Assembly (NCBI GenBank): GCA_024642625.1 | Contig: JAHEAU010000010.1 | Span: 1 to 34,602, forward strand | Source: Lewinellaceae bacterium | Lineage (GTDB): Bacteria > Bacteroidota > Bacteroidia > Chitinophagales > Saprospiraceae | Direction of reading: 5' to 3' | Length of the DNA: 34,602 nucleotides | Part shown: piece by piece, positions 3,673-21,128 of the stretch | Layout: each line of letters opens with the position of its first letter | How positions within the stretch are numbered: position 1 is the first letter of the stretch | Position numbers and translations under genes: made by a program | The notes under the pieces: model-generated | Database searches by the model: none | What the model saw: only the letters and a program-made list of their open reading frames with translations | What the model was told of the DNA's origin: nothing

Positions 3673-4305
3673 TTGACTCAAGCCCCTGAAAATCACCCCC
3701 TAACCACCGCAGAAAAGCACGCCATCTTTGAGGAGGAATTTCTCCCCCACATTGATGCCCTCCACACGTTTGCCTTCCACTTGACTTTGGATGACGATGC
3801 AGCCAATGATTTGGTCCAGGATGCCTACATGAAGGCATACCGGTTTATTAAACAATATGACCGGGGCACAAATGCCAAAGCTTGGCTGTTCAAGATCCTG
3901 AAAAATGCCTTTATCAACGAATACCGACGCAGAAAGCGCCAACCGGTACAAGTGGATTATGAGGAAATCCGAAAAGTGCATGAAAAGGAAGAGCCAGGTG
4001 GCCCCGATGCGTATTTCGATCTCCGAGAGGAAATGTTCAACTACCTCATTGGTGATGAGGTCACGCAGGCGATCAATGCCATGCCGGTTGACTTTCGTAC
4101 AGTCATCTTACTTTGTGATGTAGAAGACTTCACCTATGAAGAGATCGCATTGATCCTCGATATCCCCATTGGCACTGTTCGTTCAAGATTACATCGATCC
4201 AGAAACCTCCTCAAGGAGAAGTTGAAGGATTACGCACGATCCCTTGGTTATGAGGACAAACGGCGTAAGATGACCAAGGAAGAGGATATTCCAGACCAGG
4301 AATAA
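3673..4305 (+). CDS. ECF-type RNA polymerase sigma factor (sigma-70 family)
   Basis: A 210-residue alternative sigma factor with only regions 2 and 4, as in the ECF class. Region 2 spans about residues 22-92, including DLVQDAYMKAYRF (2.2) and AWLFKILKNAFINEYRRR (2.3-2.4, -10 recognition). Region 4 spans about 128-185, with the helix-turn-helix F-T-Y-E-E-I-A-L-I-L-D-I-P-I-G-T-V-R-S-R-L-H-R-S-R. An extra acidic linker and a charged C-terminal tail of about 20 residues follow. The start is TTG at 3673: the frame has no ATG or GTG between the preceding stop (3625) and this point, and the next internal ATG would delete region 2. The next gene encodes a probable cognate anti-sigma protein, the usual arrangement for ECF factors. 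Confidence 0.9.
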   Translation: MTQAPENHPLTTAEKHAIFEEEFLPHIDALHTFAFHLTLDDDAANDLVQDAYMKAYRFIKQYDRGTNAKAWLFKILKNAFINEYRRRKRQPVQVDYEEIRKVHEKEEPGGPDAYFDLREEMFNYLIGDEVTQAINAMPVDFRTVILLCDVEDFTYEEIALILDIPIGTVRSRLHRSRNLLKEKLKDYARSLGYEDKRRKMTKEEDIPDQE

Positions 4306-9520: not shown

Positions 9521-10861
9521 CTAAAAAGCGGTCAATTCACCCGAAAGACTGAGAATCTCCACCTCCTGCACGCGCAATTGATAAATCGTCGAGATCCGTC
9601 GCTGTGCAGCTTGGGCAGCATTCAACTGAACGGTGCGCAAGTCGAAAATAGAAAGTTGACCCAAACGGAATTTATCCTCGGCCATACGCAAATTCTGTTG
9701 GGCATTGGCCACCTGTTCCTCCTGAATCGATAGATTCATCATCAGGGTTTGATAAGTTGTCATGAGGTTGTCCAATTGTGACTGGAGTTGGTCGCTCAAG
9801 GCTTGACGAGACACAGAGGCGATCTGTTCCTGAAGCCGATTTACGGATACCTGACGGCGGCGAATACCGGCATCATAAATTGGCCAGCTCCCTGTGACAC
9901 CTACATAGAGGTTGCGATTCGAACCGGTCTGTGTGCCGAAGGGCTCGCCAGTAAATGGATTATTGCCATCTAATGAAGTGACAGTGCCCGACAAAACACC
10001 ACCAGCACTGATGCCAAATTGCGGATAAAAAGCAGCCTGTGTCATCCTGGTCTGCAGGGCAGCAACCTGCTCACCCAATACAGCTTCCTGAATCTGCGGA
10101 TTTTGTGTCAACATTTGTTGCAACAACGCTGCTTTATCCCATACCTGAGAGGGCAAATTGAGTGCACCATCGACAATAAAATCACTCATTGAGGGGTCGC
10201 CCATCGCCAGTTTGAGGGCATTCTTTGACACAGCAAGATTCAGATTGGCGGTAACAACTGCAGAGCTATCACTCCAGACAGCATCCCGACTTTGCAATAC
10301 CTGTTGAGTCAATGCCTGTCCGAGTTCCCGGCGTAATTCCTGATAAGCCATCAAATCCTGACTTAAAGCCAAAACATCCCGCGTCAGATCGACCTGAGCG
10401 ACTTGCCATTCAGCATTTAAATAGGCCAGCATCACGCGTCTTACCGTTTGCAAACCAGCATCATTCAATCTCGCTCTGGCTTGTTCCTCCTGGGTGCCTA
10501 GTTGCTTCAAATTATACTTGACTCGAAACCCATTGAAAACCAACCAGGTCGCATCCAATGACACATTTGCATTTCCCGATTGGATCAAACCATTGAGGAT
10601 ACTCGCCGGATTATCCTGGTCATTCAGGTTGCCTTGCCCTGCCGTATTCAAACTGACCATTGGATATCGTCCAGCAACCGACCCATGATTATTGATTCCT
10701 GCAATACTCAATTGCAGCCCAGCGATCTGACGCTGGAGATCTTTTTCAAGGGCAATCCGGACACACTGGTCCATTGACATCACTGATTGGGCATTCACAA
10801 GCAACGGCCCAAAGCCCAAGCCTACAATAACGATAAAGGAGATTAGAATTCGGTTCATCAT
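9521..10861 (-). CDS. TolC-family outer membrane efflux protein
   Basis: A 446-residue outer-membrane channel subunit of the TolC family, which joins RND pumps to the exterior. It has a signal peptide (N-terminal hydrophobic stretch ending P-L-L-V-N-A-Q), the family opening M-D-Q-C-V-R-I-A-L-E, long coiled helices rich in Q, A and L, and a repeated pattern: S-V-N-R-L-Q-E-Q-I in the second half, ending with F-R-L-G-Q-L-S-I-F-D-L-R-T-V-Q-L-N-A-A-Q-A. The start is the ATG that overlaps the RND stop codon by one base (TGATG); a second ATG follows immediately. The frame upstream of this is an antisense extension within the RND gene. It is the last gene of the efflux operon. Confidence 0.93.
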   Translation of the reverse strand: MMNRILISFIVIVGLGFGPLLVNAQSVMSMDQCVRIALEKDLQRQIAGLQLSIAGINNHGSVAGRYPMVSLNTAGQGNLNDQDNPASILNGLIQSGNANVSLDATWLVFNGFRVKYNLKQLGTQEEQARARLNDAGLQTVRRVMLAYLNAEWQVAQVDLTRDVLALSQDLMAYQELRRELGQALTQQVLQSRDAVWSDSSAVVTANLNLAVSKNALKLAMGDPSMSDFIVDGALNLPSQVWDKAALLQQMLTQNPQIQEAVLGEQVAALQTRMTQAAFYPQFGISAGGVLSGTVTSLDGNNPFTGEPFGTQTGSNRNLYVGVTGSWPIYDAGIRRRQVSVNRLQEQIASVSRQALSDQLQSQLDNLMTTYQTLMMNLSIQEEQVANAQQNLRMAEDKFRLGQLSIFDLRTVQLNAAQAAQRRISTIYQLRVQEVEILSLSGELTAF

Positions 10862-13800
10862 CAGGAAATCAGAGCACCAACAAGGCGCATAGTGAGGACG
10901 ATCAGAGCGACAAAGATGGCCACGGTGACCAGGGCAAAAAACAACCACAACCAGATATAAGTCTTCCGCCCAACAATAGCTGGTTCGATGGATCTCGGAT
11001 CAGGACGAACACCTTCCCACTGTGTCACTGCCCAAAGTTTGACTCGATTGATCATCATCAGAAGAGAAGGCAAAAGCGTTAATGTGAGAAAGGTGGCTAG
11101 TATCAAACCAAAGGCAACAGAAACAGCCATTGGGATCAGGAATTTTGCTTGAAGGCTTTTTTCAAGCAACAATGGTCCCAGACCCGCAACAGTCGTTAAG
11201 GACGTGAGCAAGATGGGACGGAAGCGCGACAGTGCAGCTTCATAGATCGCACGCATCACTCGATTGCCTTTTCGGATCAGGTCATTATAAGTTGTTATCA
11301 GGACCAGACCATCATTCACCTGTATCCCGACCAAAGCTAAAATACCGAGGAACGAAAACAGGCTGATCGGCAAATCCATTATCCAGTGGCCCAAACCCAC
11401 ACCTGCCAATCCGAAGGGAATCAGGGAAAAGACAGCCAGCGTCTGACCTATGGATCGGAAAGTGACAGCCACCGTAAAGAACATTAGCAGCAACATCACC
11501 GGCAGAACAACTTTCGCTGATCTTGCCGTTTTCATCTGCTCGCGATTCTGCCCTTCAAATGACGCACTCACTGTTGGATAGTTCACCAAAATCTGAGGCA
11601 CAATTGTCGAGCGCAACGTCTCATTCAGATCGGTGACAGAAACATTATCCTGGGCGACATCGGCCTCCAGTTTAATCTCCCGTTGACCATCCAGGTGATA
11701 AATTGCGATCGTCCCTCGCGTCATGTCCAGGTCTGCGATTTCTCTAAGTGGAAAAGAACGGCCATCGGGAAAACGAATCCGCATCTCTTCCAATCTGCTC
11801 AGATCATCACGGTCTTGCTCGCCATACCGAACCCACACGCGCACCTCATCTTCACCACGTTGCAATCGTTGCACTTCAGATCCAAAAAATCCTTGCCGGA
11901 CTTGAGCAATCACCTCGCGGAGGTTGAGCCCCAAGCCTTTTGCCTTTTCTTTCAAGGTGACATGGATCTCCTTCAATCCTTGTTGGTTATTATTTGTCAC
12001 ATCCCGCAATTCAGCAAGCGACTCCATTTCCGTTTGCAAGTCACTGACGGCTGCTCCCAATGATGCATAGTCATTACCCAAGAGGGACACAGAAATAGGT
12101 TTTCCAAATGGCGATGGCGAACCAAACGTCAACACCTCGGCTTCTGGTACCTCGCCCATCCTTTCCCGGATCGCATTCGTGATCACGGTTGCCGTCAGTG
12201 AATCACGTATCTCTCCATCAAGAAGTGAAATATCAATTGTACCCTGATATGTTGTTGGGCCAACCTTTAACTCAATGTGTTCGATCGGTCTGTTTGATCC
12301 CTGAAAATAGCTTTCAGCCAGCTGATCATTAACAGACTCCGCAGCATGCTGAATTCGCAATAAAACGTCACGAGTCACATGCTCTCTTGTTCCCGCCGGC
12401 ATTTTCAGAGTGACACTGATATTGTCCCGGGGAATAACGGGGAAGAAGGTGGTCTTGATAAAACCGCCTCGAACCAAGCCGACCGTCAACAAGACCAGCA
12501 CGGTAAAAAAGATGAGCGTACTTCCCGGATAACGAAGTGAAAACCGAAGCACAGGAGCATAAAATCGGTTCCGCATCCAGTTCATCATGCCTTCAAAGAC
12601 ACGCTGGATTTTGTTCTTGGTCTGTCCCGGCCGAAGAGCAGCAGAGTGGGCCACATGGCCAGGCAAAATAAAGATGCCTTCTACCAGACTGAAAAAGAGA
12701 GACAGAATCACGACGACACCCAGTACAGTAAAAATATCCCCGATCCGTCCATCCAGAAATGCAAATGAGGAAAACGCAATAATCGTAGTAAGCACAGACG
12801 TAAAGACAGCCGGAATCACTTTCAATGACCCTTCGATGGCCGCTTTGTAACGAGGCACACCACGTTCATAGAGTTGATAGATGTTTTCCGAAATAACAAT
12901 GCCATCGTCTACAAGAATCCCCACCACAACGATCATCCCAAACAGGGAAATAACATTGATCGTAATGTCCATCATATAGGCCACTAAAAACATCCCGGCA
13001 AAGGAAATCGGGATCGACAAGGCCACCCAGAATGCCAAACGCCAGTTGAGAAACATCGACAGGAACACCAGGACCAACACAAATCCGATCATCCCGTTAT
13101 TGGCCAGGAGATCGATCCGTTGCTGCAACACCTCAGACCCATCCCGGATGATATCCGCACGGACTAAGTTCTGTTGATTGTTGAATGACTCGATATACGT
13201 GCGCACTTTTTTTGCGATATCCAAGATGTCTTCATCGAGCGTATTAGAAACAGTGACCACCACACTCGGTTTGTCATTGATCCAGCTCCGGTCTGGACTG
13301 TCCGACCATTTATCCTGGATATCCGCAATCTGATAGAGCCGGATGATGTTCCCTTCTGCTGTCACTTTGACGGGTATTTCCCGGAGCTCATCAGCGAAAT
13401 AGCCTTTATTCCGCGCCCGAATGAGCAATTCCTCTTTTTCTCCTTTCAGTGTGCCGCCAGTTAATTCCAGATTGCTGCCCCGTACCGCCAGTTCTGCTTC
13501 ACTGAATGTCAATTGATAGGCTTGAAGATCCTTCTCCCGAAAGGCAATTTCGATTTCCTCCGCCGGAAATCCATTCAGCGTGACTTTGGAGATCCCGTCG
13601 ATAGCAAGCAGTTCGGATTCAGCTTGACGGCCAAACTGTTTAAGTGTCCGTAGATCGACATCTCCACTAATGGCAAAATTGATGGCAAAGCCCAAGTTCT
13701 CCTGACGGAATACGACAGGAGGTTCCATGCCTACAGGAAATGAAGGAATCCTGTCCACTGCATTGCGGACATCATCCAGCACTTTCTCCGGATTGTGGCC

Positions 13801-14094
13801 CTGGAGCGCCTCCACGGTGATCACACCACTGTTTTCGGTGCTAACTGAAGAGACTCGCTCCACACCGGAGACTCCTTTCAGGTTTTCTTCGATCTTCAGG
13901 ATAATTCCCTCCTCAATCTCTTCCGGAGAAGCTCCAGGATAGACCGTCTGTATCGTAATGATCCTGGATTCCACCTCCGGAAAAAAGGTGGACTTCAAAT
14001 TGGTCAGTCCAAATGCCCCAGCCAACAAAAAGAGGACCATGAGAAGGTCACCAGCAATAGGGTATCGAATAAAAAAGCGTAGTAATGCATGCAT
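10861..14094 (-). CDS. RND-family efflux pump, inner membrane subunit (AcrB/MdtBC-like)
   Basis: A 1077-residue proton-driven exporter with 12 predicted membrane helices and two large periplasmic loops. TM1 is near residues 12-30. The proton-relay aspartates lie in the G-I-L-V-D-D-G-I-V-I-S-E-N motif, D396 and D397. The second half repeats the layout, with V-N-D-G-L-V-L-I-T-T-Y-N-D in the equivalent helix. The porter opening F-F-P-E-V-E-S-R and Y-P-G-A-S-P-E-E-I-E are typical of the HAE1/heavy-metal-like branch. The substrate is not readable, and no metal-binding Met cluster typical of CusA was noted. It lies 11 bases after the adaptor gene and overlaps TolC by one base, giving a complete tripartite pump. 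Confidence 0.95.
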   Translation of the reverse strand: MHALLRFFIRYPIAGDLLMVLFLLAGAFGLTNLKSTFFPEVESRIITIQTVYPGASPEEIEEGIILKIEENLKGVSGVERVSSVSTENSGVITVEALQGHNPEKVLDDVRNAVDRIPSFPVGMEPPVVFRQENLGFAINFAISGDVDLRTLKQFGRQAESELLAIDGISKVTLNGFPAEEIEIAFREKDLQAYQLTFSEAELAVRGSNLELTGGTLKGEKEELLIRARNKGYFADELREIPVKVTAEGNIIRLYQIADIQDKWSDSPDRSWINDKPSVVVTVSNTLDEDILDIAKKVRTYIESFNNQQNLVRADIIRDGSEVLQQRIDLLANNGMIGFVLVLVFLSMFLNWRLAFWVALSIPISFAGMFLVAYMMDITINVISLFGMIVVVGILVDDGIVISENIYQLYERGVPRYKAAIEGSLKVIPAVFTSVLTTIIAFSSFAFLDGRIGDIFTVLGVVVILSLFFSLVEGIFILPGHVAHSAALRPGQTKNKIQRVFEGMMNWMRNRFYAPVLRFSLRYPGSTLIFFTVLVLLTVGLVRGGFIKTTFFPVIPRDNISVTLKMPAGTREHVTRDVLLRIQHAAESVNDQLAESYFQGSNRPIEHIELKVGPTTYQGTIDISLLDGEIRDSLTATVITNAIRERMGEVPEAEVLTFGSPSPFGKPISVSLLGNDYASLGAAVSDLQTEMESLAELRDVTNNNQQGLKEIHVTLKEKAKGLGLNLREVIAQVRQGFFGSEVQRLQRGEDEVRVWVRYGEQDRDDLSRLEEMRIRFPDGRSFPLREIADLDMTRGTIAIYHLDGQREIKLEADVAQDNVSVTDLNETLRSTIVPQILVNYPTVSASFEGQNREQMKTARSAKVVLPVMLLLMFFTVAVTFRSIGQTLAVFSLIPFGLAGVGLGHWIMDLPISLFSFLGILALVGIQVNDGLVLITTYNDLIRKGNRVMRAIYEAALSRFRPILLTSLTTVAGLGPLLLEKSLQAKFLIPMAVSVAFGLILATFLTLTLLPSLLMMINRVKLWAVTQWEGVRPDPRSIEPAIVGRKTYIWLWLFFALVTVAIFVALIVLTMRLVGALIS

Positions 14095-14105
14095 GACAAT
14101 CGGAC

Positions 14106-15230
14106 TTATTCAGTGATCCAATTGACCCGCTGACCTTCAATCATTCCCGGTTTTCGATCTAAAACGATCAATGCCCCTTCTTTCAGTCCTCTGACAATGG
14201 CATTTGTCCGACCATTTCGGACAACATCAACAGCCACCTTGATCAGACTACTGTCCTGGATTTGCCAGATCTCCCGTCCATTCACAACCAGATCCTTCGA
14301 TAAAGAGGCAACATTTTCTGAAATCCCACCAGAAATCTCACCGGAAAGGAACATACCTTCCTTAAGACCCTGACCATTCACTTCAATATAGATTGGTACC
14401 ATTTGCGTGGAGGCCTCGACCTGATCCCCGATTCGACGGACCAGACCCGTGTAGCTTTTCCCATTATCCTCACTCCCTAATGTCACTTTCTGACCGACGC
14501 GCAAGAAACCCAAATCACTGATCGAAACAGATGATTCGAGCTCATAACTTCCCAATCGGAGAAATTGGCCGATACGTTGTCCAGGTCGAACAAGGGTGCC
14601 ACGCTGGACATCGACAACCGTCAACACACCATCAAATGGCGCGACCAAGCGATATTTTGATAAGCGCTCTTCAGCGCTTCGAATACTATAATACTGTGTC
14701 TGTATACCCCGACTCGCCAAAAAGAGCTTTTCCCGATTGTTGCCTGCCTGAGGCAAATCGCTGATTTTCTTTTCAGGGTCCAATTGTTCGATATAGGATT
14801 GCCAGGTGGCGAAGCGGTCTGGGAATTCAATCTTGATATCAGGAAGGATTTGCGCTAGTGCAGTCAATAATGACGCCCTCTGCCCCTGTAAGGCCAGGCG
14901 AGCTTCACGATCATCCAATTGAAGCAGGACCTCTCCTTTCTGAAAATGAATCCCTTCCTTGAGCGGGTGTTCACCTTGATTGGCTAATCCATTGACCTCG
15001 GCAAATAAATCGACTCGGTCATATGCAGCCAATCGGCCTTGCAATGGAATGGGCATATTCGCGGGACCATTGTGTACCTCCAGTGTACGAACGGAAAGCA
15101 TGGATGATGTACCTGGTGGTTTGCGTGGTGAATCTGTTTTTTGCTTGCTCAGCAATTGAAAACCAATAACCCCTCCAATAAACAGGATTGCAGTCAGGAG
15201 AATGACGATTCGTCGCCAGGATAGATTCAT
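14106..15230 (-). CDS. Efflux RND transporter periplasmic adaptor (membrane fusion protein)
   Basis: A 374-residue HlyD/AcrA-type adaptor that bridges the RND pump and TolC in the periplasm. It has one N-terminal membrane segment (V-I-L-L-T-A-I-L-F-I-G-G-V-I-G-F) with no lipobox. Next come a biotinyl-lipoyl-like half-motif (G-R-L-A-A-Y-D-R-V-D-L-F-A-E-V-N-G), a helical hairpin (about 105-195), the return lipoyl half (A-P-F-D-G-V-L-T-V-V-D-V-Q-R-G), and beta-barrel and membrane-proximal domains to the end. Start ATG 15230 overlaps the stop codon of the upstream lipoprotein gene by 4 bases (ATGA), so the two are probably translated in a coupled way. Confidence 0.93.
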   Translation of the reverse strand: MNLSWRRIVILLTAILFIGGVIGFQLLSKQKTDSPRKPPGTSSMLSVRTLEVHNGPANMPIPLQGRLAAYDRVDLFAEVNGLANQGEHPLKEGIHFQKGEVLLQLDDREARLALQGQRASLLTALAQILPDIKIEFPDRFATWQSYIEQLDPEKKISDLPQAGNNREKLFLASRGIQTQYYSIRSAEERLSKYRLVAPFDGVLTVVDVQRGTLVRPGQRIGQFLRLGSYELESSVSISDLGFLRVGQKVTLGSEDNGKSYTGLVRRIGDQVEASTQMVPIYIEVNGQGLKEGMFLSGEISGGISENVASLSKDLVVNGREIWQIQDSSLIKVAVDVVRNGRTNAIVRGLKEGALIVLDRKPGMIEGQRVNWITE

Positions 15231-15757
15231 GCTTTCGCTTTAAAAGTCAGACGAAGAGTAAAACTCAATGCAGAAGGAGAAGGTTGTCGAAGCCGAAAAC
15301 CCATTCTCAAGTTCATCGCACTTTGCGTCAACCAGGGCTTGAAATCGGCCAGGGTCCCAACTAATATCACCCGGCTTCCCGTATTCAACGGGACATTCGG
15401 AGTATAAAAACATTCGTATCGGTTAGGACTATCAATGAGTTCAATAAAGATCTCCTGGAAGTAATCCAGACTTGTCGGTGCCAATACAACCTCCAATTGG
15501 GCATTATAGGGTTCGATTTGGCCGATATCAGCAGTTGTCAATCCATAGTCAGCCAGGATGGCTTCAATTCGTGTGGGCACCTTGTCAAATTCGACAAAAT
15601 GGGTTTGAATGGTATTCAGCGCAGCTGGCATATCCACGTTGAAGACATAGACCATGTCAAACAATGTGGGCTTCTCATCTTTGGTACAACCAGAAATACC
15701 CAGACAACTGATGACCAGAAAAGTAAAGAAGACTGTACGGCGAAAAAGGTGACCCAT
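15227..15757 (-). CDS. Putative lipoprotein of unknown function in efflux operon
   Basis: A 176-residue protein starting at ATG 15757. It has a basic start (MGHLFRRT), a hydrophobic core and a lipobox (L-G-I-S-G-C), so the mature lipoprotein starts at about Cys27 with an acidic CTKDEK segment. The rest is about 150 residues without any domain I recognise; it contains Y-N-A-Q-L-E-V-V-L-A-P-T-S-L and ends in R-L-T-F-K-A-K-A. The reading frame opens earlier at 15934, but that part lies inside the regulator gene on the same strand in another frame and looks non-coding. The ATGA overlap with the adaptor gene and the 32-base gap from the regulator put it in the pump operon, perhaps as an accessory periplasmic factor. 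Confidence 0.75.
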   Translation of the reverse strand: MGHLFRRTVFFTFLVISCLGISGCTKDEKPTLFDMVYVFNVDMPAALNTIQTHFVEFDKVPTRIEAILADYGLTTADIGQIEPYNAQLEVVLAPTSLDYFQEIFIELIDSPNRYECFYTPNVPLNTGSRVILVGTLADFKPWLTQSAMNLRMGFRLRQPSPSALSFTLRLTFKAKA

Positions 15758-15789: not shown

Positions 15790-16698
15790 TTATCTGATCA
15801 ACTCCGGTTGATCGATCTCCTCCAGAACGCTGAGAATCTCTTCCAGATTTTTCATAACCCGCACTCCGGAACCAGTGGTGATCCCCTGGACAAGAACCTG
15901 ATATCCCGTGATCAAAACGGTTTTTTTCTGACAAACTTGTCTGAGATCATTCAAATACTGATGTACTGATTGTCGTGTAAACGCTTCGGAAATAATTGTG
16001 AGGATATAGTCCGTTTGAAAAATCTTGCACGCTTCAGCCAGATCAGCCAATCCCGTGTTTTGTCCCAGATAGAGCACCCGATGACCGCGATTGCGGATAA
16101 GATACTGGAGAAAAAGCAGGCTAAGCTCCTGGGATTCCCCCTCTGGTAAATACAGAATAAACGACCGCTTGGCGTTTTGTGCGAACGGGATCTCATCTAA
16201 TGCAGCGATCAGTTTCTGGCGGACCAGATTGCTGATAAAACTTTCCTGGACGGCATGGATGGAACCTGTCAACCAGAGAAGAGAAAGTTTATCCAGAAAC
16301 GGGTAGATCACTTCGAGCATGGTCCGTTCAAAACCGATTGCCCGGATATTCGAAGAGAGGATGGTCTCGAATTTACCTTCATCCAACTCCATCATGGAGA
16401 TGGTCATCGCATCCACCTGAATCGAATCCTCAAAATTACCGCTAGATAGTTTATTGACCTCATCCTTGATCTCTTGCTCATCCATCGAGGCGATCCGGGA
16501 GATCTTGAATCCATTCTTGTTGAGGATGGAAATATTCAGCAACAGACGAAGATCCCGGTCTTCATAATACCGGATATTTGTCGGCGTCCGTTGAGGCTGG
16601 ATGATATCATAACGTTGTTCCCATATCCGTATGGTATGGGCTTTAATGCCAGATAGCATTTCCAGATCCTTGATTGAATAGACGGCCACAGGTTGCAT
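15790..16698 (-). CDS. MerR-family regulator with degenerate B12-binding domain
   Basis: A 302-residue transcription regulator. Residues 7-75 form a MerR winged helix-turn-helix (YSIKDLEMLSGIKAHTIRIW, then R-Y-Y-E-D-R-D-L). Residues 90-300 have the CarH/LitR helical and Rossmann folds, with Y-L-G-Q-N-T at 210-215. Two hallmark histidines of cobalamin-dependent members are missing: the Wx9EH motif reads W142, nine residues, E152-S153; and the E-x-H-E site reads G-E-S-Q-E, with Q190 where the ligand histidine would be. The start is ATG 16698; the longer frame (16740) adds 14 unlikely residues. It is the first gene of the efflux operon and divergent from the amidohydrolase gene; I infer it regulates one or both. 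Confidence 0.85.
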   Translation of the reverse strand: MQPVAVYSIKDLEMLSGIKAHTIRIWEQRYDIIQPQRTPTNIRYYEDRDLRLLLNISILNKNGFKISRIASMDEQEIKDEVNKLSSGNFEDSIQVDAMTISMMELDEGKFETILSSNIRAIGFERTMLEVIYPFLDKLSLLWLTGSIHAVQESFISNLVRQKLIAALDEIPFAQNAKRSFILYLPEGESQELSLLFLQYLIRNRGHRVLYLGQNTGLADLAEACKIFQTDYILTIISEAFTRQSVHQYLNDLRQVCQKKTVLITGYQVLVQGITTGSGVRVMKNLEEILSVLEEIDQPELIR

Positions 16699-16806: not shown

Positions 16807-19800
16807 ATGAGGAATTTCCTGCTTTTTCTTCTGACGAGTGTCGTTCTATTCCCGCTCGTTCATGCCCAAAATACAACCTTTCCCGTTCAAGGGATTCCAG
16901 ACCCCAGACTGGATTGGTATGCATTTACTCATGCCATGATTCATGTCAATGGCGATCAAACTCTACAGGATGCGACGTTGATCATTCGGGAAGGACGGAT
17001 CACAGCCATTGGTACGCAGATCTTGATTCCGGATGGAGCAGTGATCATAAATGTCGCCGGGCGCCACTTGTATCCAGGTTTTATTGACCTTTCTTCGGAT
17101 TATGGTCTAACCGAAAAGGAAGAAAGTAGTCCTCGTGACCGAGGCTCTCGCCGACAAGGAGACAAGTGGATCACTGATCGTCCCGGAGCATATGCCTGGA
17201 ATGAAGCATTGAAATGCGACTATCAGGCAGCATCCGTTTTTCAACCCGATACCAAACAGGCAGATTCCTATCGCAAAGCAGGTTTTGCATGGGTATTGAC
17301 CCACAAACACGACGGTCTTTCCCGGGGTACTTCTGCACTGGTCAATGTCGGAGATATCGAAGCCGGACAAGCGCTCGTCCGCGACCAGGTCGGACACCAT
17401 CTCTCCTTTAAAAAAGGAACTTCTGAGATGCCCTATCCTGGTTCACTGATGGGATGTATCTCCCTCTTGCGACAGACCTATCTCGATGGCGATTGGCTGA
17501 TACGAACCAATGCAAAGGAAGAACGAAATCTGACCCTGCAGGCGTGGAACAACATACAGAAGCTACCTCAATTTTTCGAGGTTCGCGACTGGCAGGAAGT
17601 CCTTCGTGCCCAGAAAATCGCGAAGGAATTTGACAAGACCTATATCTATCGCGGTGCAGGCGATGAATATCGCCGGATTCAGGAACTCAAAGCCACCGGG
17701 GCCACCTTTATCCTACCTCTTACCTTTCCTGAAGCCTATCAAATTAATGATCCCTATGATGGACTTCAGGTTTCGCTGGAAGACATGATGCATTGGGAGT
17801 GGGCTCCGGCAAATCCGGGTGCACTCCAGCGTGCAGGTATTCCTTTTGCATTGACCATGGAAGGCTTGACAAAGCCAGAGGACTTTTTTATTGCCATCCA
17901 AAAGGCCATTGCCAATGGACTTGATCCAGCGAAAGCCCTGGATGCATTGACCCGGATTCCCGCCCAGATGATCGGCATGAGCAGCGAACTGGGGTCAATA
18001 GAAGTCGGCAAACGAGCCTCCTTTTTAATCACTTCTGGTCCTGCTTTTGAAGAAGGTACTACCCTCTTTGAAAACTGGGTAGAAGGCAAGCCCTATGTAC
18101 TCCAGGCCGCTGATGAGCCGGATCTGGACGGTAAATATGACCTTCAGGTGGGTTCCGAATCCTTTCAACTGGAAGTACGCGGTGGAGGAAAGAAAAACAA
18201 CTACCAACTGCGCCTCAATGATACCACCACCATCAACATGAAAGGGCAATGGGATCGCGGTCGCATCGACCTCCAATTTCAGATGACCGATTCGACCGGA
18301 GTCTATCTCCTGGGCGGATACCAGCAGGACAAGGTGTGGAACGGTCGCGGTACGGACGCCACTGGTGAGTGGGTCTCCTGGCGGGCTGTCTACCGGGATA
18401 CGATTCAGTCTAAAACAAAACCCGAAAAATCTCCAGCCCCATTTGACCTGGCCAATCTGGGACCGATTCGATACCCGTTCCTTCCGTATGGATGGACGGA
18501 AAAGCCCCAACAGAAATCCTGGTTGATTAAAAATGCAACTGTCTGGACCAACACCGACCAGGGCATCCTGCGCGGTGCAGATATCCTGATTCAAGGCGGT
18601 AAGGTGATCAAGGTGGGTCAAAACCTCCAGGCACCCAATGCTTCGGTCCTCGATATCAATGGCCAGCATGTCACGCCGGGGATGATTGACGAACATTCAC
18701 ATATCGCCATTTCGCGTGGTGTCAATGAGTGTACCCAGGAAAACACGGCAGAAGTCAGCATTGGCGATGTAGTCAACAGTGAGGATATCAATATTTACAG
18801 ACAACTGTCAAGTGGAGTGACCACCTCTCAGTTGCTACATGGATCCTGCAACCCAGTCGGCGGCCAGAGTGCCATTATCAAGCTGCGTTGGGGTTCCTCG
18901 CCGGAGGAGATGAAACTGAAAGGTGCCCCAGGATTCATCAAATTTGCCCTGGGTGAAAATGTCAAACGCTCCAATGGCGGCGAAGACAACACGCGATATC
19001 CGAATACCCGGATGGGCGTGGAACAGGTCTATGTCAATGCCTTCCAACGCGCTCGTGAATACGAAAAGCAGATGAAAGACCCTGCCACTCGTGCTAGTAC
19101 CCGGCGAGATCTCGAGTTAGAAACCATGGTGGAGATCCTGAATAAAAAGCGATTTGTCACTTGCCACTCTTATGTGCAATCAGAAATCAATATGCTCATG
19201 CATGTTGCCGAATCCTTTGATTTTCGGATCAACACATTTACCCACATTCTGGAGGGATACAAGGTGGCCGACAAGATGGCCAAACACGGCGCTGGTGGTT
19301 CTTCCTTTTCCGATTGGTGGGCCTACAAGTTTGAAGTGTATGACGCCATCCCTTACAACGGTGCTTTGATGCATGAACAGGGTGTGGTGACAGCCTTCAA
19401 CTCCGATGATGCGGAGATGGCCCGTCGCTTGAATCAGGAAGCAGCTAAAGCTGTCCGGTATGGTGGTGTCTCTGAAGAGGAGGCCCTGAAGTTTGTCACG
19501 CTGAATCCCGCCAAACTACTCCACATCGATGATCGGGTTGGCAGTATCAAGCCCGGCATGGATGCCGATATCGTGATCTGGTCTGACCATCCGTTGTCCA
19601 TCTATGCGCATGCTGAAGTCACATTTGTTGATGGCATCAAGATGGTCGACGAAGAAATGAATCGGCAGGCTCAAATCGACATTCAAAAAGAGCGGCAGCG
19701 TCTCCTCAACAAGATGAAAGCCGAAGGCGGCAAGAATAAACGACCTCCCGGCAGACGTGAACAGCACCTGTATCACTGCGACTCTGATTTTGACGAGATT

Positions 19801-19809
19801 TCTGAATGA
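16807..19809 (+). CDS. Two-domain amidohydrolase-superfamily protein, secreted
   Basis: A 1000-residue protein with a signal peptide (FLLFLLTSVVLFPLVHAQ). Residues 38-430 form an amidohydrolase-like domain whose metal-binding segment is degenerate (L-Y-P-G-F-I-D-L-S-S-D-Y-G, no HxH). Residues 445-535 appear to be a beta-rich linker. Residues 570-970 form a second, apparently active domain: PGMIDEHSHIAI with HSH at 630-632, C-H-S-Y with H787, T-H-I-L-E-G with H813, and N-S-D-D-A-E with D867. The family hydrolyses amide or related bonds using one or two metal ions, often in peptide or imidazolone compounds; the substrate is unknown. Its last four bases overlap the next gene (ATGA). A polar, basic tail ends the protein. 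Confidence 0.9.
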   Translation: MRNFLLFLLTSVVLFPLVHAQNTTFPVQGIPDPRLDWYAFTHAMIHVNGDQTLQDATLIIREGRITAIGTQILIPDGAVIINVAGRHLYPGFIDLSSDYGLTEKEESSPRDRGSRRQGDKWITDRPGAYAWNEALKCDYQAASVFQPDTKQADSYRKAGFAWVLTHKHDGLSRGTSALVNVGDIEAGQALVRDQVGHHLSFKKGTSEMPYPGSLMGCISLLRQTYLDGDWLIRTNAKEERNLTLQAWNNIQKLPQFFEVRDWQEVLRAQKIAKEFDKTYIYRGAGDEYRRIQELKATGATFILPLTFPEAYQINDPYDGLQVSLEDMMHWEWAPANPGALQRAGIPFALTMEGLTKPEDFFIAIQKAIANGLDPAKALDALTRIPAQMIGMSSELGSIEVGKRASFLITSGPAFEEGTTLFENWVEGKPYVLQAADEPDLDGKYDLQVGSESFQLEVRGGGKKNNYQLRLNDTTTINMKGQWDRGRIDLQFQMTDSTGVYLLGGYQQDKVWNGRGTDATGEWVSWRAVYRDTIQSKTKPEKSPAPFDLANLGPIRYPFLPYGWTEKPQQKSWLIKNATVWTNTDQGILRGADILIQGGKVIKVGQNLQAPNASVLDINGQHVTPGMIDEHSHIAISRGVNECTQENTAEVSIGDVVNSEDINIYRQLSSGVTTSQLLHGSCNPVGGQSAIIKLRWGSSPEEMKLKGAPGFIKFALGENVKRSNGGEDNTRYPNTRMGVEQVYVNAFQRAREYEKQMKDPATRASTRRDLELETMVEILNKKRFVTCHSYVQSEINMLMHVAESFDFRINTFTHILEGYKVADKMAKHGAGGSSFSDWWAYKFEVYDAIPYNGALMHEQGVVTAFNSDDAEMARRLNQEAAKAVRYGGVSEEEALKFVTLNPAKLLHIDDRVGSIKPGMDADIVIWSDHPLSIYAHAEVTFVDGIKMVDEEMNRQAQIDIQKERQRLLNKMKAEGGKNKRPPGRREQHLYHCDSDFDEISE

Positions 19810-21128
19810 TCCTCCAAATGATCCACATGCTCCACAGACTTATCAACTATACCCTGGCCACTCTGCTTTGTTTATTGCCGATCGGCCTGATCGCACAACC
19901 TGCACCTGCCCCCGCTCAACAGGAGCCCATCGCCATCATCGGTGCCACCTTGCATATCGGCAATGGACAGGTGATCGAAAATGGTGTCATCCTTCTCGAA
20001 AATGGCCGCATCACTTCAGTCGATATGAAGAGTCGGAATACAGAATGGCAGAAGGATAAATACAAGCAGATTCAGGCAGATGGTAAACATGTCTATCCCG
20101 GATTGATCGCGCTGAATACATCCTTAGGGCTAAAAGAAATTGATGCTATACCAGCCACTCAGGATGTCAATGAATTCGGTCCAGACAATTCCAATGCCCG
20201 GACCATCGTCGCCTATGATGCCGATTCACAGGTCATTCCTACCGTGCGAACAAATGGCGTGTTGACCGCTCAAATCGCTCCAGGCAGTGGACGCTGGTCT
20301 GGATTGAGCAGTGTGGTCCAGCTGGATGCATGGAACTGGGAGGATGCGGCGTATGCCAGCGATGAGGGTGTTTTCCTTCATTGGCCATCACCCTACTCTC
20401 GCAGTGGCTGGTGGGCCGAACCGGGTATCACCACCAGGAACAAAGAGTACCAAAAGCAGATCGACGACCTGGACATCTTCATGCGGGAGGCAGCAGCTTA
20501 TGCCCGGATGCCCGCAGTTGCAGAAAAGAACTTGCGCTTTGAGGGGCTCCGTGCCGTTTTTTCCGGAAAACGACACCTCTATATCGAAACAGGAGATGCC
20601 TTGGCCATCCAGGATGCTGTCTTGTGGGCAGGAAAATACAATGTCGTCCCCGTCATCGTGGGTGCTCATGACAGTTGGATGATCACAGACTTTTTGAAGG
20701 AGAATAAGGTGTCTGTCGTGCTCATGCAGACCCATCGCCTGCCTTCAAATCCGGAAGATGATGTTTTATTACCTTTTAAAACTCCCTCTTTGTTAGCTAA
20801 AGCCGGTGTTCCGTTTGCACTGGCTGTGGATGGTCACTGGCAACAGCGCAACCTGGCTTATCAGGCTGGTCAGTCCGCAGGCTGGATGACCAAAGAAGAA
20901 GCACTCCAGTCCATCACCCTATCACCTGCCCGTATCCTGGGCTTGGACGACCGGATCGGATCCCTCGAATCGGGGAAGGATGCCACCTTGTTCATCTGCA
21001 AGGGAGACATCCTCGATATGCGATCAAGCGAGGTTGAACAGGCATTTATCCAGGGCCGCGAAATCAGCTTGAACAACAAACAAAAGGACCTTTATCGGTT
21101 GTATAAGGAAAAGTATAGCCGGGAGTAA
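19806..21128 (+). CDS. Amidohydrolase-like protein without metal ligands
   Basis: A 440-residue secreted protein with an N-terminal signal sequence (M-L-H-R-L-I-N-Y-T-L-A-T-L-L-C-L-L-P-I-G-L-I-A-Q). It resembles the N-terminal half of the preceding protein: G-A-T-L-H-I-G-N-G near 47-55, Y-P-G-L-I-A-L-N-T-S-L-G-L at 97-109 where HxH would be, then R-W-S-G-L-S-S-V-V-Q-L-D, and near the end S-P-A-R-I-L-G-L-D-D-R-I-G-S-L-E-S-G-K-D-A-T-L. The zinc ligands are absent, so it is likely a non-catalytic partner. Start ATG 19806 overlaps the upstream stop by 4 bases; a later Met (ATG at about 19827) gives a more typical signal peptide. Co-translation suggests a heteromer with the larger protein. Confidence 0.87.
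   Translation: MILQMIHMLHRLINYTLATLLCLLPIGLIAQPAPAPAQQEPIAIIGATLHIGNGQVIENGVILLENGRITSVDMKSRNTEWQKDKYKQIQADGKHVYPGLIALNTSLGLKEIDAIPATQDVNEFGPDNSNARTIVAYDADSQVIPTVRTNGVLTAQIAPGSGRWSGLSSVVQLDAWNWEDAAYASDEGVFLHWPSPYSRSGWWAEPGITTRNKEYQKQIDDLDIFMREAAAYARMPAVAEKNLRFEGLRAVFSGKRHLYIETGDALAIQDAVLWAGKYNVVPVIVGAHDSWMITDFLKENKVSVVLMQTHRLPSNPEDDVLLPFKTPSLLAKAGVPFALAVDGHWQQRNLAYQAGQSAGWMTKEEALQSITLSPARILGLDDRIGSLESGKDATLFICKGDILDMRSSEVEQAFIQGREISLNNKQKDLYRLYKEKYSRE

Follow-up and report, generated by a model that had tools for sequence, protein, structure and literature searches.

The window analysed here, i.e., the whole 34,602-nt stretch of contig JAHEAU010000010.1 from a Lewinellaceae bacterium (its genome is referred to as G000), carries on its reverse strand a gene for a MerR-type regulator resembling CarH, followed by a lipoprotein-like gene and an RND efflux pump. 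The features are as follows:

15,790–16,698, minus strand: merR/CarH-like regulator gene, 302 amino acids plus stop, ATG start (open reading frame, Pfam)
16,465–16,686, minus strand: MerR helix-turn-helix region, residues 5–78 (Pfam, alignment)
16,195–16,428, minus strand: sensor-region four-helix bundle, residues 91–168, B12-binding_2 (Pfam, model)
15,793–16,164, minus strand: Rossmann-like half of the same sensor region, residues 179–302 (model)
16,270–16,275, minus strand: W142-L143 (W131-H132 in TtCarH), tryptophan kept and light-state histidine lost (alignment)
16,240–16,245, minus strand: E152-S153 (E141-H142 in TtCarH), capping histidine lost (alignment)
16,129–16,131, minus strand: Q190 (H177 in TtCarH), axial cobalt ligand lost; glutamine in 81% of the clade described below (alignment)
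15,227–15,757, minus strand: small lipoprotein-like gene following merR (open reading frame; start picked by eye)
10,861–15,230, minus strand: HlyD gene (14,106–15,230) and AcrB-type RND pump gene (10,861–14,094) (Pfam, synteny)

Positions 16,807–21,128 contain a pair of amidohydrolase-like genes in succession (1000 and 440 amino acids; assigned by eye), divergent from merR, and this pair also adjoins merR across the genus. An ECF-like sigma factor gene at 3,673–4,305 is only distantly related to the crt-linked sigma gene.

Pfam placed MerR_1 at residues 7–72 of the window protein (E = 3.1e-14) and B12-binding_2 (PF02607) at residues 97–163, the latter with 23.1 bits and so barely above the cut-off of 23; PF02310 (B12-binding) was not listed for it at E-values up to 1. 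The NCBIfam CarH equivalog NF052513 scored 88.9 bits, under its cut-off of 400, and the closest solved structures were those of TtCarH/LitR (3whp, E = 1.8e-16; 5c8d, E = 2.2e-16). An AlphaFold2 model built on an alignment of 49 sequences had a mean pLDDT of 92.7, and its sensor region superposed on CarH (5c8e_C) with a Z-score of 20.9 at 2.6 Å over 200 residues, both halves aligning across residues 89–301. Pfam and the model together recover the CarH layout of a MerR helix-turn-helix, then a four-helix bundle, then a Rossmann cobalamin domain, in line with the MerR helix-turn-helix plus cobalamin-domain layout, and the retained fold, that an earlier note had read from the sequence.

The histidines through which CarH holds or senses cobalamin have been replaced. 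In the Wx9EH motif W142 and E152 are present and the histidine is S153, while the lower axial histidine of the CarH D/ExHx2G/P motif is Q190, within G187-E188-S189-Q190-E191; both replacements, reported in the earlier note, were found again in the open reading frame and in the alignment. A third histidine is also gone: H132 beside the tryptophan of TtCarH, which is reported to become the upper ligand once CarH is in its light state (PMC9304148), is L143 here. Against the cobalamin-domain motifs GxxW, EH, GxxH and GxxxP, as named in the SignatureFinder paper (PMC11796333), the window protein reads SxxW, ES, GxxQ and GxxxG, the GxxW glycine being S139 and the GxxxP proline G216. The joint histidine loss that the earlier note described is therefore right and understated for this protein; across its clade the loss is joint in 31 of 36 members.

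Having lost the light-state histidine along with the residues for cobalt ligation and adenosyl capping, the window protein is very probably no longer an adenosylcobalamin photoreceptor, and we file it as a CarH/LitR homologue rather than as a CarH photoreceptor because defining features for which it was tested were absent. Pseudogenisation or decay is ruled out by strong purifying selection within the genus. Two further genus genomes carry copies that are 86–87% identical. In the sensor domain pN is 0.09 versus a pS of 0.72–0.76 for the two closest relatives, with synonymous change near saturation, and nonsynonymous change lies far under synonymous change in both domains. An absence of B12 use is likewise ruled out as the cause of ligand loss, since the window's genome encodes three B12-binding proteins elsewhere, namely methylmalonyl-CoA mutase, MetH and a MeaB/B12 fusion.

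It is unlikely that the protein is a modified B12 sensor which still binds cobalamin without the histidines, either base-on or with an axial glutamine. The retained fold, W142 and E152, the use of B12 elsewhere in the genome and the presence of H190 in some clade members favour this, and base-on or weak binding could in principle survive the loss of the ligands, but the axial, capping and light-state histidines have gone together with the GxxW glycine and the GxxxP proline, and PF02310 is not recognised. Nor was a substitute ligand apparent: in 23 of the 36 clade members the alignment showed no conserved histidine in the sensor domain, the only near-invariant one being H21 in the DNA-binding domain. 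There is therefore no obvious heme ligand, which bears on the proposal that the cobalamin fold now accommodates heme or some other redox cofactor, in the manner of the AppA SCHIC domain (4heh, 4hh1), which we take to be a cobalamin-type fold not used for cobalamin. The model does match the AppA SCHIC structures (Z-score of 17.0, 2.9–3.1 Å), but many B12-type folds in the match list give similar Z-scores, and the window protein has no conserved candidate heme histidine; we regard this proposal as very improbable. AppA also differs in that it is not known as a DNA-binding regulator.

Relatives of the protein were matched in 52 of 60 related genomes (E up to 1e-3) and, in a phylum search, in 83 of 395 genomes (1e-15). 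Among 51 longer homologues, column 190 held glutamine in 27, histidine in 21, aspartate in two and serine in one, and column 153 held histidine in 20, asparagine in 15, serine in 11 and other residues in five. A quick-search tree of 120 sequences, from which the trait columns were excluded and 23 further places found in the phylum search were left out, put the window protein inside a clade of 36 rows (SH-aLRT 99). Within it both histidines are lost in 31 members, only the EH histidine in three and only the axial one in two; several rows (L047, L051, L146) have long branches, and the order of the two losses is not settled by the tree. Both histidines are kept in 0 of 36 clade members versus 79 of the 84 sequences outside it. 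When six outgroup rows and two aberrant rows (L084, L180) were left out of the latter, the remaining 76 sequences had histidine at column 190 in 97% and at column 153 in 99%, while in the 36 clade rows column 190 is mainly glutamine, as given above, and column 153 is most often asparagine (44%). The alignment with relatives thus extended the earlier observation from one protein to a clade.

All 36 clade rows belong to the window's own family code; these codes group genomes, and the tie to Saprospiraceae rests on named public loci. When public genomes were scanned with the clade alignment, the best 80 of more than 590 loci, a sample that is not random, comprised 25 loci labelled Saprospiraceae, Lewinellaceae or Haliscomenobacteraceae, all of which lack one or both histidines, 38 labelled as other families, all of which have both, and 17 that carry no family label. 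A clade member was present in 33 of the 35 gene-bearing family genomes of the 60-genome search, the exceptions being G028, with a two-histidine copy only, and G008, with a two-histidine and an aberrant copy. Both kinds of copy occur in G016, G215 and G219, while the remaining 33 of the 36 genomes that carry the altered form yielded no two-histidine copy. Given these exceptions, the clade does not span the whole family. Most helix-turn-helix recognition residues are the same in relatives with and without the histidines, those common to both types being G17, K19-T22, R24, W26-E27, R29-Y30, N41, R43 and Y45.

The gene neighbourhood differs between the two types. Within 4 kb of crtI/crtB lie 49 of 79 two-histidine loci versus 0 of 36 clade members, the flanks compared being 1.5 to about 8 kb with many ended by the contig, and within those flanks clade genes are not near crt; six more two-histidine members adjoin an ECF sigma gene. 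In the window's genome crtI-crtB is on a different contig from merR. At the locus L069 (G026), which has EH but D190, merR is still 373 bp from the sigma gene. Frequent neighbours of the clade merR are genes for a BshA-type glycosyltransferase, a large secreted protein, a PorZ-like protein and YceI; YceI was assigned by Pfam, and the BshA and PorZ assignments are presumptive, made from the sequence. None of the marker genes stands beside merR in six of the 36 clade members. In 10 of 51 loci a co-directional YceI gene comes after merR (e.g., L040:5282–5953).

The earlier note had suggested that the regulator senses a ligand related to its own efflux operon, which would make it a sensor of some substrate of the neighbouring RND pump, in control of that operon. 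The arrangement invites this idea, as merR, the lipoprotein-like gene, HlyD, AcrB and TolC are co-directional in the window and in two further genomes of the genus (G002 and G004). The lipoprotein-like gene follows merR in all five genus genomes and in none of the other loci compared. The pump, however, is absent in G001 and stands beside merR in none of the other 47 loci, some of which are shortened by contig ends; G003 is uninformative, as its contig ends too soon. No copy of the predicted operator described below was found in the window with up to three mismatches, and repeats of this kind are located elsewhere in the genome. With synteny in only three of the four informative genus genomes and no operator in the window, the efflux link is unsupported, and control of the pump by its own substrate is improbable.

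An inverted repeat, TTTGTTTAA-N-TTAAACAAA, with the half-site TAAACAAA, offers a different set of targets. Outside the clade, 37 of 76 merR genes have the half-site upstream (3.7 expected), and so do 17 of 23 crtI genes in family genomes (0.8 expected), where expected counts come from crude shuffles of base pairs. These 23 regions are those of 30 crtI loci that have a detected start, seven without one being left out, and 22 of the 23 come from genomes in which only the clade regulator was found. The half-site also lies upstream of seven of the 36 clade merR genes and is absent from the 270 bp before the window merR. None of the three sets of upstream regions showed enrichment of TGTACA, the half-site of the class II LitR type.

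Whole genomes were searched for TTTGTTTA-N8-36-TAAACAAA, with the reversed pattern as control and its totals summed from tables; P values computed on spacings and half-site counts take related genomes as independent. In 34 family genomes this gave 58 sites versus 27 for the control, with peaks at 35 bp (15 sites) and 45 bp (15 sites). A set of 28 genomes, of which 27 are of the histidine type and one is the siteless clade genome G035, gave 41 sites versus 17, with a peak at 34 bp (20 sites, 14 of them given as loci) and none at 45 bp. In 27 genomes without a CarH-like MerR match at 1e-3 (8 genomes) or 1e-15 (19 genomes), one of them 80% complete, there were 12 sites versus 20 for the control and no peak; four of the 12 have lengths of 34, 35, 36 and 44 bp, and no marker gene lay near any of the seven given as loci. 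G030 and G032, which lack the MerR, are in both the family and the MerR-less sets and contribute no site. The repeat is a candidate operator at crtI, and its excess was confined to genomes that have a MerR of this kind. A perfect repeat was absent genome-wide from eight of 32 MerR-bearing family genomes, five of which have the half-site upstream of crtI and three of which (G010, G012, G036) do not. In the 34–36 bp sites, TAnnTTTG, which we take to be the Bacteroidota −7 box, falls inside the repeat at an offset of 16–18 in nine of 41 strings and at an offset of 10 in one more, which would fit an operator placed over the promoter, as for a repressor.

In clade genomes the repeat is found ahead of crtI, sigma, rhodopsin and folE genes that lie scattered. 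We examined 53 of the 58 family sites, the five left out all being of off-peak length: sigma, crtI, crtY/rhodopsin or folE genes were faced by 24 of 40 sites of 34–36 or 44–45 bp and by one of 13 sites of other lengths, with the target list and length classes chosen after the lengths and part of the targets had been seen. Spacing varied with target, sigma having 34–35 bp in 13 of 15 sites and crtI 44–45 bp in six of seven. Among the other 16 peak-length sites are ones at DUF4397 genes (three), PAS-AraC genes (two) and polyketide-cyclase-like, HNH, PIG-L and epimerase genes, and ones with ArsR-like neighbours, judged by eye. The PAS-AraC regulator has a 45-bp repeat upstream in two family genomes (L195:1573–2307, L194:745–1482) and is a candidate partner or downstream regulator. 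Rhodopsin and Blh-like genes with the repeat in the promoter region were seen in L193 and L223, the former with a lycopene cyclase gene too.

The 3.6-Mb genome of the window has two perfect sites, each of 45 bp, at crtI (C165) and at a DUF4397 gene (C8). With up to two mismatches the 45-bp site occurs nine times in the five genus genomes and never in the controls: at crtI (three), DUF4397 genes (three), a second folE (two, in G002 and G004) and one unassigned G004 protein. At crtI in G004 the site measures 44 bp, and G003 has no crtI match yet retains the regulator and the DUF4397 site. The DUF4397 protein, which is probably secreted, is the second repeat-bearing gene product in three genus genomes (L200:100–1452, L199, L201). 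The second folE of G002 and G004 has the two-mismatch repeat upstream (L257:737–1432, L256:736–1452), and another folE was found in all five genus genomes. A scan upstream of the sigma genes covered the right place in G000, G003 and G004, the start calls in G001 and G002 being too far upstream; all three had a one-mismatch copy there, of 36 bp in G003 and G004 and of 35 bp in G000, where it begins 44 bp before the ATG of the sigma orthologue. Four family genomes (L057, L078, L079, L047) keep the regulator and have no crtI match at 1e-60.

The repeat could belong to another factor, such as the ECF sigma factor or a second regulator, with the MerR acting on a local target, e.g., YceI or BshA. 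Sigma and MerR are often linked, and because the two often travel together, co-occurrence cannot fully separate them; clade merR genes also often stand beside BshA-like, YceI and large secreted protein genes, and only the minority of them noted above, excluding that of the window, have the half-site in front. Against this, the repeat is palindromic with fixed spacings, MerR-less genomes show no repeat excess, and recognition residues are unchanged despite the changed neighbours. Moreover, of 26 crt-linked merR genes for which no sigma gene was found within 4 kb, 20 have the half-site in front, and therefore it is not simply a sigma element. On balance we consider a different owner of the repeat, with a local target for the MerR, unlikely.

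Several known systems resemble the present one in part. Class I CarH/LitR of Thermus thermophilus (5c8d/5c8e) shares the MerR helix-turn-helix, four-helix bundle and Rossmann fold, and relatives of the window protein are likewise linked to carotenoid genes, but the window protein lacks all three cobalamin-holding or -responding histidines. Class II LitR proteins (Pseudomonas PplR and PmlR2) are described as unable to use B12 and as having PF02607 without a recognised B12-binding domain; they keep only the four-helix bundle, with a C-terminus 19.3% similar to the Thermus B12 domain (PMC9758184). By that description the Pfam profile of the window protein, with PF02607 present and PF02310 not listed, is similar, but both sensor halves are modelled rather than the bundle only, and the one site proposed for class II LitR, TGTACA-N12-GGTATA, differs from the repeat found here. 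The same source reports that the light regulon of P. putida includes folE and that PmlR2 acts with a short LOV protein (PMC9758184). CarA of Myxococcus xanthus is described as a B12-independent CarH paralogue controlling carotenoid genes, which keeps the B12 motif and EH without the tryptophan and always co-occurs with CarH (PMC9304148); compared with this account the window protein shows the reverse, i.e., the tryptophan kept and the histidines gone, and the altered form is mostly found without a two-histidine copy (33 of 36 genomes). CarA and class II LitR may nevertheless serve as precedents, by analogy, for non-B12 input. In Bacteroidetes, the account of the MerR regulator MliR drawn on here mentions no B12-type domain (PMC9478572), and light-induced carotenoids are reported in Chryseobacterium (PMC7064467).

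The best reading of what was computed, namely the residue losses and their spread through the clade, the purifying selection, the fold, the recognition residues, the conservation of the repeat and the lack of a repeat excess where the regulator is absent, is that the window protein is the Saprospiraceae-type version of a Bacteroidota CarH/LitR carotenoid-gene regulator. We think it reasonably probable that it is a B12-independent CarH homologue which still governs an ancestral light regulon in trans through the predicted operator. Its sensor domain would keep the cobalamin fold without the cobalt ligand, adenosyl cap or light-state histidine, and the protein probably still binds the ancestral inverted repeat TTTGTTTAA...TTAAACAAA, presumably as a repressor. 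From a separate locus it would control the ECF sigma factor, crtI-crtB and the probably secreted DUF4397 protein, and its signal would come from a partner protein or another ligand instead of B12. The earlier note's view that the fold was kept while the ligands went thus stands, and the loss of B12 or light sensing itself is something we infer. Spacings of 35 and 45 bp accompany the altered protein and 34 bp is found in histidine-type genomes; the change, about one more helical turn for the 45-bp form, may indicate that the protein assembles into another oligomer.

Among B12 photoreceptors CarH is a model case, and it is used as an optogenetic tool. A search of the open-licence literature by title and abstract, with the operator string outside the queries, found no description of such a B12-ligand-less CarH system. 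The repeat is also predicted to be the operator of the ordinary histidine-type MerR-crt module across Bacteroidota, and the predicted operator and target list offer a concrete means of testing the new input. The lineage may be seen as a natural experiment in which the ligands were lost and the fold, recognition residues and predicted regulon were kept, suggesting that these are separable design parts. Tentatively, and with some doubt, we propose that most of the Saprospiraceae and kin, as we word it, run an ancestral photoprotection regulon through a CarH homologue whose B12 input has been traded and whose operator spacing has moved, the shift from 34 to 35 or 45 bp suggesting a changed oligomer. 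On this proposal the replacement input would most likely be a partner protein or a flavin/PAS photoreceptor; if true, CarH-type repressors would have one more means, not described so far, of reading light or oxidative stress.
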